42,938 nt of DNA. Source: Acidobacteriaceae bacterium (GTDB lineage: Bacteria; Acidobacteriota; Terriglobia; Terriglobales; Acidobacteriaceae). Positions 2,597 to 22,063 of this stretch are shown here, in pieces; positions within the stretch are counted from its first letter, which is position 1; every line of letters starts with the position of its first letter. Under the pieces are notes generated by a model, which did not search any database, was not told the DNA's origin, and was given only the letters and a program-made list of their open reading frames with translations. The translations under genes were made by a program, and so were the position numbers. Location of the stretch: NCBI GenBank assembly GCA_003166855.1, contig PMUM01000098.1, positions 829 through 43,766 of the forward strand, in the 5' to 3' direction.

Positions 2597-2634
2597 CTGT
2601 CCGCTCCTGGACAGCCCTCATGCATATCCGGACA
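2597..2634 (+). promoter_or_regulatory. Upstream activator-type palindrome TGTCCGCTCCTGGACA plus CCGGACA half-site
   Basis: TGTCC-N6-GGACA at 2598-2613 (extended by one more pair, C/G), then a second half-site CCGGACA at 2628-2634. A near-identical arrangement (15 of 16 bases of the palindrome, with the half-site starting 29 instead of 30 bases on) lies before the second ADOP permease at 19476-19512. Its place about 100 bases upstream of a sigma-54-type promoter fits an enhancer-binding-protein site. The bound regulator is not encoded in the window. Confidence 0.65.
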
Positions 2635-2696
2635 CCATTTGCGCTTGTCATCTATGCGAAAAATCGTTTTCTCCATACTTTGCAATGAAACTCTAG

Positions 2697-2712
2697 TGGC
2701 AAAGAAATTGCT
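2697..2712 (+). promoter_or_regulatory. Sigma-54-type promoter TGGCAAAGAAATTGCT
   Basis: The sequence shows the invariant GG (2698-2699) and GC (2710-2711) with exactly ten bases between, within TGGCA ... TTGCT. This matches the -24/-12 consensus TGGCAC-N5-TTGCT well. It points toward the ADOP start at 2799, leaving a leader of roughly 75 bases. Confidence 0.65.
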
Positions 2713-2798
2713 GAAGAGCGTCTTCAGACAGCGGCTGCCAAACCTAATTCGGCTTTCTAACTCGTCCCGGCCAAGATACGTCAGAAATGGAGATGACC

Positions 2799-5246
2799 AT
2801 GACTGGCATCCTTCAAGATGTTCGATATGCGTGGCGGCAGTGGCGGAAGAACCCGGGATTCGCCGTGAGCGCGATCGCCGTGCTGGCGCTAGGCATCGGC
2901 GCAACTACTGGCATGCTTGCGATTGTGCAATCGGTGCTGCTTCGCCCACTCGGCTATCGGCAGCCAGAGCGATTATTGCTGGTGGGCACGTCCGAGACTG
3001 ATGACGAAAGCTATTCCGTAGTCTCGATTGCAGATTTTAAGGAAATGCAACGTAGCCTTCACCAGTTTGAGCAACTATCTGCCTTCAACAGTCTGCCAGT
3101 TCCGGTAGAGACGGATGACGGTGCAGAGATGCTGCTGGCACCCGAGGTGAGTACAAACTTCTTTGATACTCTTGGCGTCTTCCCGGTCATGGGCCGCCCC
3201 TTCCGGAACGGCGACGACGCGCCCGGTGCGGGTGCGGCCATTGTCAGCCACGAGTTCTGGCAGAACACGATGCATTCCAGCCGGGCGGTGCTCGACAGCA
3301 AGCTGAAGGTGAATGGCCAAGTTTATACGATAGTCGGAGTCATGCCGCCGCAGTTTCAGTTTCCCGTAACGAATGGGAAGACAGTATGGACAGCACTGCA
3401 GCTCACTCCAGACCAAAAGACCAAACAAGGCTTCGACTCCTTCAAAGTGTTGGGACGGCTGAAAGTGGGCTCCACGGCGGAACAGGCACGCGCAGAAGGA
3501 GAGGCATATCTACTAAACAGGAGTGCTAAACCGAGTTCGACTCCTCCAAGTCACTTTTGGGTATACCCCTATCAACAGATTGTGACCGGAAACTCGAAGC
3601 CCGGTTTGCTTGCGCTATCCGGCGCCTGTTTGCTGCTGTTATTGATTGCGATCGTAAACACAGCCAATTTGCAGATCGCAAGAGCCACGGCACGTCAAAG
3701 CGAGATTGCGATTCGGGCTGCGTTGGGCGCCACACGAGCACGTATCGTCCGCCAGACAGTGATAGAGAGCTTGATCCTTGCATTTGCGGGGGCAGCGCTT
3801 AGCTGGATGCTCGCCAATGGATTTGTAGCGGCAGCACGTCATTTGTTTGCTCGCCAGCCGAGATTCGATGCGCTTCAGTTTGCTTCTTGGATACTGCCTG
3901 CATGTTTAGTTATCACAGTCCTGTGCGGGCTGACGGCAGCGATCGCGCCTTCTTGGTATTTAATGAGAAATGACCAGCGCTCGTTGGTTCTGCGCGGAGG
4001 AAGCGGAGGACGAGTTAGCCATCAGCATCGTCTCAGCGCCTGGCTGGTTGCTGCGGAGGTGGGGCTGAGTACAGTTCTTCTGATTGCTGCGAGCCTGTTC
4101 TTCCGGACTCTTCGTTCGATGGAAAACGTTCCTCTGGGCTTCAATCCGGAAAGAGTCACGACATTTTTATTGTGGCCCCAAGGCGGGAATAGCATGCCCA
4201 TGCCCGTCAAGCTCTCTGTTTATCAACGGGTTCTAGACCGGCTGGAACATTTGCCCAACATGGACTCAGCAGGTCTCGTCACGTCGCTTCCAATCTCCAA
4301 TTTTCAGATGACGATTGTCTCAGGGTTCGAGATCCCCGGTGTTCTGTCTCCCGACCAAAAGCCTTCCCCGTCACTCCGCATCACAGCGATGAGTCCTGAC
4401 TACTTCCGGGCGATGAACATTCCAATGCTTGCGGGACGCAGCCTATCAATCACTGACAGTGCGTCCGCTCAACTCGTCGGCATAGTGAATCAGGCCTTGG
4501 TCGATGCATACCTGCATGGCGGGAATCCAATCGGCCAGCAGATCATTCTCGATAAACCGTCTGGGATTTTGCAACCCGTCACCATCGTTGGTGTTTCGGG
4601 AAACGTCATCCAGGAGAATTCCATTGGTGAGCCCGTCGCACCTGAACTTGCGGTTTCATTCCTGCAGCTACCTTTGTCAGCCCAGTTTTCTCAGTACATG
4701 ATTGGTTTCTCGGACGCATTCGCGGTCCGTAGCCGATCCGGGACAAAAGGCATTGCGGGGGATATTCGCGCCATTGTGAAAAGCGAAGCTCCCAATTTTG
4801 CGATCGATGATCTGGTACCGCTTGAACAAGCTGTACACGATGAGTTGAAGACGCAACGTCTAGGGCTGGAGATTACTTCGTTATTCGCTTGGATCGCGGC
4901 GCTGCTGTCTGCGACTGGTCTCTATGCAGTATTAGCCTACGTCGTCGGGCAGAGAGTTCACGAGATGGGAATAAGGCTTGCGCTTGGAGCTACCCGTGGA
5001 AGCGTGTTTGGTTTTGTCGTACGCCAGGGGTTTTGGATGGTCGGCGCTGGCCTGATCTGCGGATGGGCAGTTGCCTTCTTCGCGTGCCGCTGGATACGCA
5101 GCTTCCTTTACGGCTTCACGCCTGGCGACCCGCTCACTTATGCGGTCGTCGGGATCTTGGTAGTGCTTGCTAGCACTGCAGCCATTGCAGTTCCTGCATA
5201 TCGCTCAGCAAGGGTAGATCCAATGGTGGCGCTGCGGTACGAGTAA
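2799..5246 (+). CDS. ADOP-type ABC transporter permease (MacB/FtsX fold)
   Basis: An 815-residue membrane protein. I chose ATG 2799 because GGAG lies six bases upstream; the earlier ATGs at 2787 and 2793 lack such a site. The N-terminus (ILQDVRYAWRQWRKNPGF, then a first membrane helix with LALGIGATTG) is diagnostic of the ADOP family. The order is: helix at about 20-45, periplasmic MacB-type core domain (about 60-240), FtsX triple helix (about 265-380), second periplasmic domain (about 430-660) and second FtsX segment (about 680-815, ending DPMVALRYE). These are orphan permeases; no ATPase gene is adjacent. The substrate is unknown; related MacB systems export peptides or lipids. By eye it is more A/T-rich than its neighbours, which may hint at transfer. 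Expression is probably sigma-54 dependent. Confidence 0.9.
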   Translation: MTGILQDVRYAWRQWRKNPGFAVSAIAVLALGIGATTGMLAIVQSVLLRPLGYRQPERLLLVGTSETDDESYSVVSIADFKEMQRSLHQFEQLSAFNSLPVPVETDDGAEMLLAPEVSTNFFDTLGVFPVMGRPFRNGDDAPGAGAAIVSHEFWQNTMHSSRAVLDSKLKVNGQVYTIVGVMPPQFQFPVTNGKTVWTALQLTPDQKTKQGFDSFKVLGRLKVGSTAEQARAEGEAYLLNRSAKPSSTPPSHFWVYPYQQIVTGNSKPGLLALSGACLLLLLIAIVNTANLQIARATARQSEIAIRAALGATRARIVRQTVIESLILAFAGAALSWMLANGFVAAARHLFARQPRFDALQFASWILPACLVITVLCGLTAAIAPSWYLMRNDQRSLVLRGGSGGRVSHQHRLSAWLVAAEVGLSTVLLIAASLFFRTLRSMENVPLGFNPERVTTFLLWPQGGNSMPMPVKLSVYQRVLDRLEHLPNMDSAGLVTSLPISNFQMTIVSGFEIPGVLSPDQKPSPSLRITAMSPDYFRAMNIPMLAGRSLSITDSASAQLVGIVNQALVDAYLHGGNPIGQQIILDKPSGILQPVTIVGVSGNVIQENSIGEPVAPELAVSFLQLPLSAQFSQYMIGFSDAFAVRSRSGTKGIAGDIRAIVKSEAPNFAIDDLVPLEQAVHDELKTQRLGLEITSLFAWIAALLSATGLYAVLAYVVGQRVHEMGIRLALGATRGSVFGFVVRQGFWMVGAGLICGWAVAFFACRWIRSFLYGFTPGDPLTYAVVGILVVLASTAAIAVPAYRSARVDPMVALRYE

Positions 5247-5525: not shown

Positions 5526-5639
5526 CGAAACCTGCTATTTTCCCGAAATGGACTCGCCGAAAAAGCGCTCATCGGTGCCGCTGTCAGAAATTTTTTTCCG
5601 CAGGTTTCGTTACAATTAAAAAAGGTTCTGTGATCTCCT

Positions 5640-19475: not shown

Positions 19476-19512
19476 GTGTCCGCTCGTGGACACGATGCGG
19501 CAAAACCGGACA
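19476..19512 (+). promoter_or_regulatory. Upstream activator-type palindrome TGTCCGCTCGTGGACA plus CCGGACA half-site
   Basis: The palindrome at 19477-19492 and half-site at 19506-19512 match the site before the first ADOP gene (2597-2634) at 15 of 16 palindrome bases, with the half-site displaced by one base. The flanking bases also pair (G/C), giving arms GTGTCC and GGACAC. It starts 22 bases after the acyltransferase stop. Confidence 0.65.
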
Positions 19513-19542: not shown

Positions 19543-19558
19543 TGGCAAATTAAACGCC
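19543..19558 (+). promoter_or_regulatory. Sigma-54-type promoter TGGCAAATTAAACGCC
   Basis: GG (19544-19545) and GC (19556-19557) are separated by exactly ten bases in TGGCAAATTAAACGCC. The -24 half matches well; the -12 half is weaker (ACGC in place of TTGC). It points to ATG 19625. Confidence 0.5.
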
Positions 19559-19624
19559 TTATCCACCTTCGAGGTTGGTGACCGACGTGCGGTTGTTCCG
19601 TCCATCCGTCTGAGGGACACGTCC

Positions 19625-22063
19625 ATGCAGACCTTGCTTCAGGACTTCCGCTTCAGCCTTCGTCAACTGTTCAAGAGTCCCGGATTCAGCCTGACGGCCG
19701 TGCTCTCGCTGGCTCTGGGTATCGGCGCGACCACCGCGGTTTTCAGCGTGGTGTACGCAATCCTGATGAATCCCTATCCGTACGCCGCCTCGGACCGCAT
19801 GATCCACATGCGGCTGCTCGACGATTCGCAGCACGAGCGCGGGTTCGGGCTGACCGGCGCGCAGTGGCAGCAGATTCGGAAATCTCCCGTGGTGGAAGAC
19901 GCATTCATGGAGGACGATTGGAGCCTCACCGTCACCGGGAAAGATCTGCCAGAAGACGTGCAAGGCGTCTACTTCAGCTCCAATGGTTTCACTTTCATGG
20001 GTGTTCCACCTGCCCTGGGTCGGGGATTGATTCCTTCCGATGCGATCGATGGTCAGGAGCCGCAGCCTGTTGTCGTGCTGGGCTACAAATTCTGGCAACG
20101 TCATTTCAACGGAGATCCCTCTGTGCTGGGCCAGAACTTGCAACTGGTGCGCAAGAACTACACAATCGTGGGCGTCGCCGGCCCGCGCTTTACTTGGGGT
20201 GATGGCGACGTCTACCTCCCGCAGAAAGTTACGCAGGACCCGGTTAAGGCCTTTTACGTCGGCGTTCGGTTGAGGCCAGGCGTGACCCACCAGGCGGCAA
20301 ATGCGGCCTTGCAACCGATGATCGAGCAGTTCGCCAAGGAAACGCCCAAACATTTTCTCTCAGATCATCTCCGCTTGCACGTAGTAGGGCTGAATGAACA
20401 GTTTGTTAAAGACTTAGGTGGGACGTTGTATCTGCTATTCAGCGCGGTGGCGCTGCTGCTGGCCATCGGATGCGGGAACGTGTCGATCCTGCTGCTGGCG
20501 CGGGGTACGGCGCGTCAGCATGAATTTGCGGTGCGTACGGCGATTGGCGCCAGCCGGGGCCGCATCATCCGGCAACTGCTGACGGAGGCGTTGCTGCTTT
20601 CTTTGACCGGGGCTGCGTTGGGCGTGCTGCTGGCGTACCGGGCGCTCGCGCTCATTGTGGAGTTGCTCCCGAAATATTCCTTCCCGCATGAGGCGTCGAT
20701 CCAGATCAATTTGCCGGTGCTGGCCTTCAGCGTGGGGGTAGCTGTGTTCACCGGGATTCTGTTTGGCCTGTGGCCAGCACTTCAACTTTCACGGCCCGAA
20801 GTCAGCCAGGTCATGCAGTCCAACACGCGCAAGATCGCAGGCGCGGTGCGCGGACGCACCACGCACGGCGTTCTGACCGCCGTCCAGGTCTCGCTGACGC
20901 TGGTGATGTTGGCCGGAGCGGGCGCGGCGATGGAGGGATTCCTGCGCCTCATCCACACGCCTCTCGGCTATGACCCACACAACGTGATGTCGGTGGGAAT
21001 TCCGGTGCATGATGGCGCGTACCCGACGTGGGAGGCGCGTAAGGCTTACTTCGAGCAGTTGCGGAATAAGGCGGCCACGGTTCCGGGCGTGACCATGGCC
21101 GCGATCTCGAGCAACGCGACGCCTCCGTCCAACGGATGGCAGACGGGCGTCGAGATTCTAGGCAAACCGCAACGCGATGGTCAGAAGATTCGCGTCAACT
21201 TTGTAAGTCCAGGATATTTCCCGATACTGCGAATTCCACTGGCGACGGGAAGGATTTGGGATGAAGCGGAAAATCACAATGCCGCGCACCTGGCCGTCAT
21301 CAACGAGACGATGGCGAAGCTCTACTTCCCAAATGGCGATGCTTTAGAGCACTCGCTAAGAGTTCCGGAGATAAAGGACGAGCTGCCGTACGTCACGACC
21401 GCGTCCGGCGGGGACACCTGGCTGCAGATTGTGGGCATCGTTGCGGACAAGCGCGATGACGGGTTGAGAAATCCGATTCTGCCGGAAGCCTTCGTACCGT
21501 ACACGCTGTCGATGCGGGTATGGACGCAGATCCTGGTACGATCGGAAGTGCCGCCGTTGTCGCTGTTGCATGCCGTGGGGCTGCAAGTGAACTCGGTCGA
21601 TCCGGACCAGCAAATTAACGGCCAGGTCCAGGATCTGGACCACTGGATCACGGGCCAGCAGGAATACGAGCAGGAACAACTGGTGGCGTGGTTATTCGGC
21701 GCATTTGCCGTGCTGGCGCTGGCTCTGGCGGCTGTGGGTCTCTATAGCGTCGTCTCGTATTCGGTCGCGCAGCGGACGAACGAGTTTGGCATTCGCATGG
21801 CGCTGGGCGCGCAGCGGATGCATGTGCTGCGGATTGTGTTTGCGTCCACGGTGGCGAGCGTGGGGAGCGGCATCGTGGTGGGAATTGCCCTGACGCTGGC
21901 ACTGAACAAAGTGTTGGCGCGGTGGGCGGAGGGAAGCTCCCGTGATCCGCTTGTGCTGCTGGCGGTGACTGTGTTGTTGAGCGTGGTCGCGGCGATTGCC
22001 TGCTCGGCGCCCGCGCGCAGGGCGGTCAAAGTGGATCCGATGACCGCGTTGCGCTACGAGTAA
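19625..22063 (+). CDS. ADOP-type ABC transporter permease (second copy)
   Basis: 812 residues from ATG 19625, where the family's standard opening MQTLLQDFRFSLRQLFKSPG begins; the frame is open further upstream but that part overlaps the acyltransferase gene and the regulatory sites. The order is the same as in the gene at 2799: first helix (LALGIGATTAVFS), periplasmic core domain (about 50-240), FtsX block (about 265-380), second periplasmic domain (about 430-670) and last FtsX block (NEFGIRMALGAQRMHVLRIV, ending DPMTALRYE). It has no adjacent ATPase. It differs enough in the periplasmic parts to be a separate paralogue and not a recent copy. It shares the activator palindrome and sigma-54-type promoter with the first. 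Confidence 0.9.
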   Translation: MQTLLQDFRFSLRQLFKSPGFSLTAVLSLALGIGATTAVFSVVYAILMNPYPYAASDRMIHMRLLDDSQHERGFGLTGAQWQQIRKSPVVEDAFMEDDWSLTVTGKDLPEDVQGVYFSSNGFTFMGVPPALGRGLIPSDAIDGQEPQPVVVLGYKFWQRHFNGDPSVLGQNLQLVRKNYTIVGVAGPRFTWGDGDVYLPQKVTQDPVKAFYVGVRLRPGVTHQAANAALQPMIEQFAKETPKHFLSDHLRLHVVGLNEQFVKDLGGTLYLLFSAVALLLAIGCGNVSILLLARGTARQHEFAVRTAIGASRGRIIRQLLTEALLLSLTGAALGVLLAYRALALIVELLPKYSFPHEASIQINLPVLAFSVGVAVFTGILFGLWPALQLSRPEVSQVMQSNTRKIAGAVRGRTTHGVLTAVQVSLTLVMLAGAGAAMEGFLRLIHTPLGYDPHNVMSVGIPVHDGAYPTWEARKAYFEQLRNKAATVPGVTMAAISSNATPPSNGWQTGVEILGKPQRDGQKIRVNFVSPGYFPILRIPLATGRIWDEAENHNAAHLAVINETMAKLYFPNGDALEHSLRVPEIKDELPYVTTASGGDTWLQIVGIVADKRDDGLRNPILPEAFVPYTLSMRVWTQILVRSEVPPLSLLHAVGLQVNSVDPDQQINGQVQDLDHWITGQQEYEQEQLVAWLFGAFAVLALALAAVGLYSVVSYSVAQRTNEFGIRMALGAQRMHVLRIVFASTVASVGSGIVVGIALTLALNKVLARWAEGSSRDPLVLLAVTVLLSVVAAIACSAPARRAVKVDPMTALRYE

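Follow-up and report, generated by a model that had tools for sequence, protein, structure and literature searches.

Introduction

NtrC-class enhancer-binding proteins (EBPs), among them NtrC, ZraR, AtoC and the PEP-CTERM response regulator, comprise receiver, Sigma54_activat and HTH_8 domains, and are associated with palindromic tandem sites about 100 bp upstream of a GG/GC promoter and with an adjacent kinase gene. The reference sigma-54 -24/-12 consensus is TGGC...TTGCA, and the loop motif of sigma-54 activators is GAFTGA. MacAB-TolC and the darobactin exporter DarBC offer the closest described transport machinery, bringing together MacB_PCD and FtsX domains, an HlyD-like adaptor, an ABC_tran ATPase and an OEP channel. 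Sigma-54 has been presented as a controller of the bacterial exterior (PMC3162934); in the available part of that text, the terms Acidobacteria, Solibacter, permease and efflux are absent.

Permeases of the ADOP family (TIGR03434), orphans by name, are encoded in tens of copies per genome with no assigned partner. In the part of PMC10564751 considered, 102 acidobacterial orphan permeases, 80 of them transcriptionally active, are described in a single MAG and a role in transport, perhaps extending to carbohydrate metabolism, is proposed, while the available portion of PMC11573002 names the family once.

The DNA considered here, termed the window, is a stretch of 42,938 nucleotides from an Acidobacteriaceae bacterium (assembly GCA_003166855.1, contig PMUM01000098.1, positions 829 to 43,766). 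The original prediction made from its sequence held that an enhancer-type palindrome and a sigma-54 promoter precede an ADOP gene, and that this layout would explain how such orphan permeases are controlled.

Predicted Sigma-54 Promoters in the Window

The palindrome, CCGGACA half-site and promoter core that had been described as lying about 100 bases apart are all present, with a spacing of 99, the palindrome starting at 2598 and not, as first given, at 2597. The same layout, again with the promoter at 99, precedes a second ADOP gene of the window. These features are listed below, together with their state in a near relative (G004), in which the ADOP 1 orthologue (92%) is likewise preceded by a palindrome, a half-site and a promoter core of its own.

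2598..2613, + strand: enhancer palindrome TGTCCGCTCCTGGACA (TGTCC-N6-GGACA), proposed EBP site; kept in G004 with one spacer change
2619..2634, + strand: degenerate second enhancer site CATGCATATCCGGACA, 21 bp downstream of the first; 15 of 16 bases kept in G004
2628-2634, + strand: CCGGACA half; unchanged in G004
2697..2712, + strand: predicted sigma-54 -24/-12 promoter TGGCAAAGAAATTGCT; GG and TTGC kept in G004
2787..5246, + strand: ADOP permease 1, 819 aa; TIGR03434 at 720.8 bits (cut-off 622.3)
19477..19492, + strand: enhancer palindrome TGTCCGCTCGTGGACA before ADOP 2; 16 of 16 bases identical in G004
19497..19512, + strand: degenerate second enhancer site with CCGGACA, 20 bp downstream of TGTCCGCTCGTGGACA; CCGGACA unchanged and 14 of 16 bases kept in G004
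19576..19591, + strand: predicted sigma-54 promoter TGGTGACCGACGTGCG, spacing 99, predicted +1 at about 19602
19625..22063, + strand: ADOP permease 2, 812 aa; TIGR03434 at 776.6 bits (cut-off 622.3)

Both ADOPs thus match TIGR03434 over the whole profile and above its curated cut-off, permease 1 containing two stretches each of MacB_PCD and FtsX. The start of TGGCAAAGAAATTGCT, with a predicted +1 at about 2723, lies 99 bp from that of TGTCCGCTCCTGGACA, within the 97-99 spacing cluster of relatives described below. The half-site CCGGACA belongs to a second, degenerate palindrome, 20-21 bp from the first, of which it is the better conserved half. Upstream of ADOP 1, these elements are kept in G004 while neighboring bases change. 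Before ADOP 2, TGGCAAATTAAACGCC at 19543 (66-bp spacing) was also considered as promoter and was rejected; since G004 keeps TGGTGACCGACGTGCG, at 99 bp, unchanged and loses TGGCAAATTAAACGCC, TGGTGACCGACGTGCG is the likely ADOP 2 promoter.

Within the window alone, the palindrome with at most one mismatch occurs three times against 1.24 expected, a count reached in 12 of 100 shuffles, and the -24/-12-like pattern occurs 19 times against 22 expected. As neither motif is clearly above shuffles, it is how the two are combined and distributed that carries the argument. Such counts speak for a chance pairing of two short motifs, yet that explanation is already contradicted by the second copy before the other ADOP, by the footprint in G004 and by the order-wide enrichment reported in the next section, and is scarcely credible.

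Distribution of the Motif Pair

When the 6.94-Mb draft genome of which the window is part (contig C412; 93.38% complete, 6.27% contamination) was searched, TGTCC-N6-GGACA was found at 11 places, as compared to three for the reversed pattern, and TGTCCRN4YGGACA, whose R and Y positions were refined after inspection of the sites in this same genome, at seven, as compared to one. Five of the seven refined sites lie before ADOP transcription units, four of them directly before ADOPs (in contigs C73 and C443 and twice in the window) and one at the head of an operon in contig C240 that contains ADOPs. From the reading of translations, the sixth precedes a response regulator with a PP2C-type output, and a small secreted-type protein is encoded about 390 bp downstream of the seventh. 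At the genome rate, 0.008 sites would be expected in 17 ADOP units of 450 bp each, such that P(>=5) is approximately 2e-13, an optimistic value given that the motif was refined on the same sites. A site at C358:12890 had been considered as preceding an EBP gene; this assignment was dropped, the translation reading as a response regulator with a PP2C-type output. The genome contains one match to Sigma54_DBD (rpoN), at 204 bits.

Across 298 genomes of the window's order, the combined pattern (palindrome, 75-105 bp, TGGN9YGC) yielded 194 matches in 120 genomes, some of them sharing a palindrome, versus eight for the reversed pattern. With the gap displaced to 106-136, there were 34 matches in 31 of the 298 genomes versus 21 reversed. 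As such, the enrichment of the motif pair before ADOP genes on which the original prediction was to be judged was obtained both in the genome itself and in the order. In 111 distinct site-gene pairs, eight of which come from the window's own genome, the first gene downstream encodes an ADOP in 48 cases, an HlyD adaptor in 34, a response regulator-PP2C protein in five, a winged-helix regulator in four, an ABC protein in one and none of these in 19. For the relatives alone, represented by 99 regions taken among the matches listed (some near-identical or contig-end places were skipped), the 103 pairs comprise 44 ADOP, 33 HlyD, four response regulator-PP2C and four winged-helix genes, and 18 with none. 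The recurrent response regulator with a PP2C-type output (5/111; for example, L109:13030-14214) suggests a second signaling branch in the regulon.

A profile was built from the 85 relatives' sites with a recognized first gene. In 71 of these, the distance from palindrome to TGG is 97-99 or 107-111, that is, eight of the 31 values allowed, and the two clusters are one helical turn apart. A T precedes the -12 GC in approximately 96% of the sites, though the pattern allowed T or C, and the unconstrained promoter bases follow the sigma-54 consensus (TGGC, TTGCA); a second degenerate palindrome is visible 20 bp downstream of the first. With a profile trained on other genomes, the window promoters scored 14.3 and 12.1 bits. 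The assignment of the GG-N10-GC element as a sigma-54 core is thereby upheld, while the motif-pair distribution, the spacing clusters and the presence of rpoN support the predicted enhancer-and-promoter layout of an EBP target.

Symmetric 16-bp palindromes are typical of repressors as well, and PadR-like ORFs, from the reading of translations, lie upstream of two ADOPs that carry no site. The palindrome could accordingly be a repressor operator, for instance of the TetR or PadR type, with transcription relying on sigma-70 and GG-N10-GC being coincidental. Against this stand the distance of about 100 bp, the helical phasing, the TGGC...TTGCA consensus and the outcome of the displaced-gap control, and the repressor reading is very improbable. 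A search of 2450-2830 gave no sigma-70-like promoter, which counts for little against this reading, as 0.3 matches were expected by chance.

In the 5.6-Mb draft G019, a single 16-mer, TGTCCGCTCGCGGACA, accounts for 19 of the 21 places listed; it was set aside as what appears to be a dispersed repeat element with no link to the regulon.

In the rest of the phylum, 29 of 396 genomes match, 13 of 44 in the own genus/family and 16 of 352 among the others. Of the 16 loci outside the genus/family, L303 and L304, both from family f29, have a strong HlyD and ABC target and L302, from the same family, an OEP target; L299 matches HlyD and ABC less strongly, a weak match to ADOP lies farther downstream in L284, L305 and L290 match ABC, and the remaining loci have no target match. 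In the f29 genome G590, another site lies ahead of HlyD, ABC and a weak match to ADOP. The architecture is rare outside the order, with an HlyD/OEP target in three f29 genomes and a weaker one in one more.

An HlyD-Headed Operon and Its Encoded Candidate Regulator

The remaining ADOP-associated site of the window's own genome is situated as follows.

Contig C240, operon head: palindrome at 5600, promoter 110 bp further on

The genes downstream encode, in order, an HlyD-like adaptor, an ABC ATPase, nine ADOPs, a second ABC ATPase, an OEP/TolC-like channel, an EBP with Response_reg, Sigma54_activat and HTH_8 domains, and a histidine kinase. The gene for the candidate regulator, the EBP, thus appears to lie in an operon with the enhancer at its head. 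When the C240 EBP was compared with NCBIfam, it fell below the cut-off in the best 25 of 82 families, the highest-scoring being PEP_resp_reg (388 versus 502.6 bits).

HlyD-headed operons hold from zero to about ten ADOPs. In the approximately 3 kb downstream seen at 33 relatives' HlyD loci, the order was HlyD-ABC-ADOP in 17, HlyD-ABC-ABC in 12, HlyD-ABC only in three and HlyD-ABC-OEP in one. Orthologues of window ADOP 1 in G001 (75%) and G022 (71%) lie inside HlyD-ABC-ADOP-ABC-OEP operons with the site at their head; that of G022 continues with EBP and kinase genes, and in G001 the contig breaks off inside the OEP gene. The C240, G022 and G001 operons thus each bring together genes for permease, ATPase, adaptor and outer-membrane channel. 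In G155 and G202, the operon encodes the adaptor, two ATPases, the channel, the EBP and the kinase, with no permease recognized using the reference proteins of this analysis, and the site is present before ADOPs elsewhere in the genome.

At HlyD loci such as L071:5739 and L181:3168, the first in-frame HlyD start codon follows the T of TGG by 28-31 nt, as seen in 26 of 35 rows. With the start at about +3 to +6 from the predicted transcription start, the operon mRNA would be nearly leaderless.

At 27 of the 34 HlyD-type sites, an EBP orthologue shares contig and strand with the site and lies 4-30 kb downstream of it; for six of the remaining ones it is on another contig, 33 of the 34 rows being listed. 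The exact site and promoter occur in 109 of 183 genomes with an EBP orthologue and in 11 of 115 without. Here, genomes were scored EBP-positive at E below about 1e-130, the 115 negatives being 29 genomes that matched more weakly and 86 that gave no match at 1e-100 (66 outside the matches listed). Both EBP and ADOP are present in 181 of the 298 genomes and neither in 94, with ADOP alone in 21 and EBP alone in two; ADOP-positive genomes exceed the curated cut-off, whereas the negatives comprise 13 with weaker matches and 83 without a match (63 outside the matches listed). As three ADOP candidates were scored per genome, this survey gives presence rather than numbers. In the window's genus (25 genomes), 17 genomes have both, seven have neither and one has ADOP only. 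That both are missing together from part of a single genus speaks against shared ancestry as the sole cause. Because the genomes are related and the events non-independent, P values overstate significance.

The link between EBP and site is not strict: 74 of the 183 EBP-bearing genomes contain no exact match, and 11 genomes match without an EBP orthologue. The sites could then be real sigma-54 enhancers bound by a different EBP, the operon-encoded protein controlling something else. Apart from those 11 genomes, the 29 Sigma54_activat matches of the window's own genome, a few of them weak, mean that another EBP could bind, and one paralogue is nearly identical in its receiver and AAA domains. 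Nonetheless, the 27 HlyD cases noted above place the site in front of the operon that encodes the EBP itself, presence of the EBP tracks both the site and ADOP presence, and the C-terminal sequence GNxSQAAExLGLSRGALYRRMEKYG is common to 15 of 16 EBPs, the exception being that paralogue. Binding by a different EBP is, on these grounds, improbable, and the operon-encoded EBP is retained as the candidate regulator. The presumed sigma-54 contact loop of this protein (L072:12658-14070 and orthologues) reads GAFTDA in 14 of the 16 EBPs, two being unmatched by the search expression.

The paralogue, encoded in contig C296 of the same genome (L170:15083-16570), shares 80% identity with the C240 EBP across 479 aligned residues and differs from it at the C-terminal end, which looks like a swap of the DNA-binding part. 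From the reading of translations, its gene adjoins ORFs for an outer-membrane efflux protein and a kinase.

The Share of ADOP Genes Carrying the Site

Between nine and at least 46 ADOPs per genome were found among the eight genomes scored. Upstream regions of 53 ADOPs from four genomes were scored with a profile trained on other genomes, the threshold being the maximum of 97 background pieces of the window (three of 100 were dropped as each held a site start). Fourteen of the 53 scored above all background pieces, namely, five of 14 in the window's own genome (the 14 being those outside the window and C240), four of 11 in G099, one of eight in G202 and four of 20 in G155; the regions from the latter three genomes belong to top-listed ADOPs, a part of all, some being inner members of tandem sets. 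Two of the five in the own genome are the exact C73 and C443 sites, while each of the other three departs from the fixed bases at one position, and one of the three has GGGCACGGTGATTGCA as its promoter. None of 18 upstream regions of single FtsX-type permeases of the same genome scored, ADOPs and single permeases having been assigned by open-frame length, with a C317 gene (560 aa) excluded from both sets. In the reverse-strand controls, for which alone a single G126 region was used, two of 40 regions also scored.

As most sampled ADOPs have no recognizable site, the site covers a subset of the family, and the explanation of orphan permease control first offered would apply to that subset. PadR-like ORFs, again from the reading of translations, were seen directly upstream of two site-less ADOPs of the own genome, in contigs C436 (L096) and C191 (L098). 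More than one class of control seems to operate among ADOPs.

Discussion

On the basis of what was computed, namely the sites and promoters, the phase of their spacing, the gene content, co-occurrence, the orthology between ADOP 1 and operonic ADOPs, and the presence of rpoN, the reading that we favor, and hold to be likely as a whole, is of a sigma-54 promoter with a tandem enhancer, at which an operon-encoded NtrC-class EBP drives its own operon together with detached ADOPs. The genes for the NtrC-class response regulator and its kinase stand at the end of an operon of the type HlyD-ABC-(ADOP)n-ABC-TolC-like, in the present genome that of C240. Once activated by the kinase, the EBP would bind TGTCCRN4YGGACA and the degenerate copy about two turns downstream, loop the DNA and contact RNA polymerase-sigma-54 some 100-110 bp away, such that the core operon and the detached ADOPs, including both in the window, would be switched on together. 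Further targets would be the response regulator with a PP2C-type output and the winged-helix regulator gene. Detached ADOPs would serve as permease subunits for the adaptor, ATPases and outer-membrane channel that the operon encodes, and the MacB_PCD, HlyD and OEP partners point to a machine that would export rather than import.

Given the shared sites, the operon membership of ADOP 1 orthologues and the co-occurrence of EBP and ADOP, those "orphan" permeases that carry the site are probably trans members of one sigma-54 exporter regulon. Whether the regulon ADOPs are, beyond this, no orphans at all, being instead interchangeable, scattered permease subunits of a single sigma-54 tripartite exporter whose core operon is seemingly permease-less in some species, is a proposal that we consider evenly balanced. 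With scattered permeases under the EBP and kinase of one core operon, one kinase would deploy the whole permease set on demand.

The ADOP family has many copies and no assigned partner. In place of the role suggested in PMC10564751, its common sigma-54 control and the operons in which it occurs with HlyD, ABC ATPase and TolC-like genes favor a MacAB-like exporter. A regulator, a kinase and partners can thus be named as candidates, which provides a testable answer to how ADOPs are partnered, and the predicted enhancer sequence can be scanned for in other genomes. Among the titles and abstract openings listed in searches of an open-access library, none addressed sigma-54 control of ADOPs or the palindrome with these targets; the sigma-54 regulon proposed here would be new.

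In its regulatory part, the system resembles those of the NtrC class, with the same three domains found in the C240 EBP, similarly placed tandem palindromes and GG/GC promoter, and a kinase gene next to that of the regulator. The ADOP family, by name orphan, here includes a subset that is co-controlled with, and sometimes encoded inside, an ATPase/adaptor/channel operon. The machinery shares its domains and partners with MacAB-TolC and DarBC, while similarity to DarB and DarC themselves is weak and far under the cut-off. Unlike in those exporters, the permease is duplicated in one chain and the ATPase is found on a separate chain, many permeases correspond to one adaptor set, and control is by sigma-54. 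That the targets are envelope transport genes is in keeping with the theme of sigma-54 acting on the cell exterior, as set out in the available part of PMC3162934.
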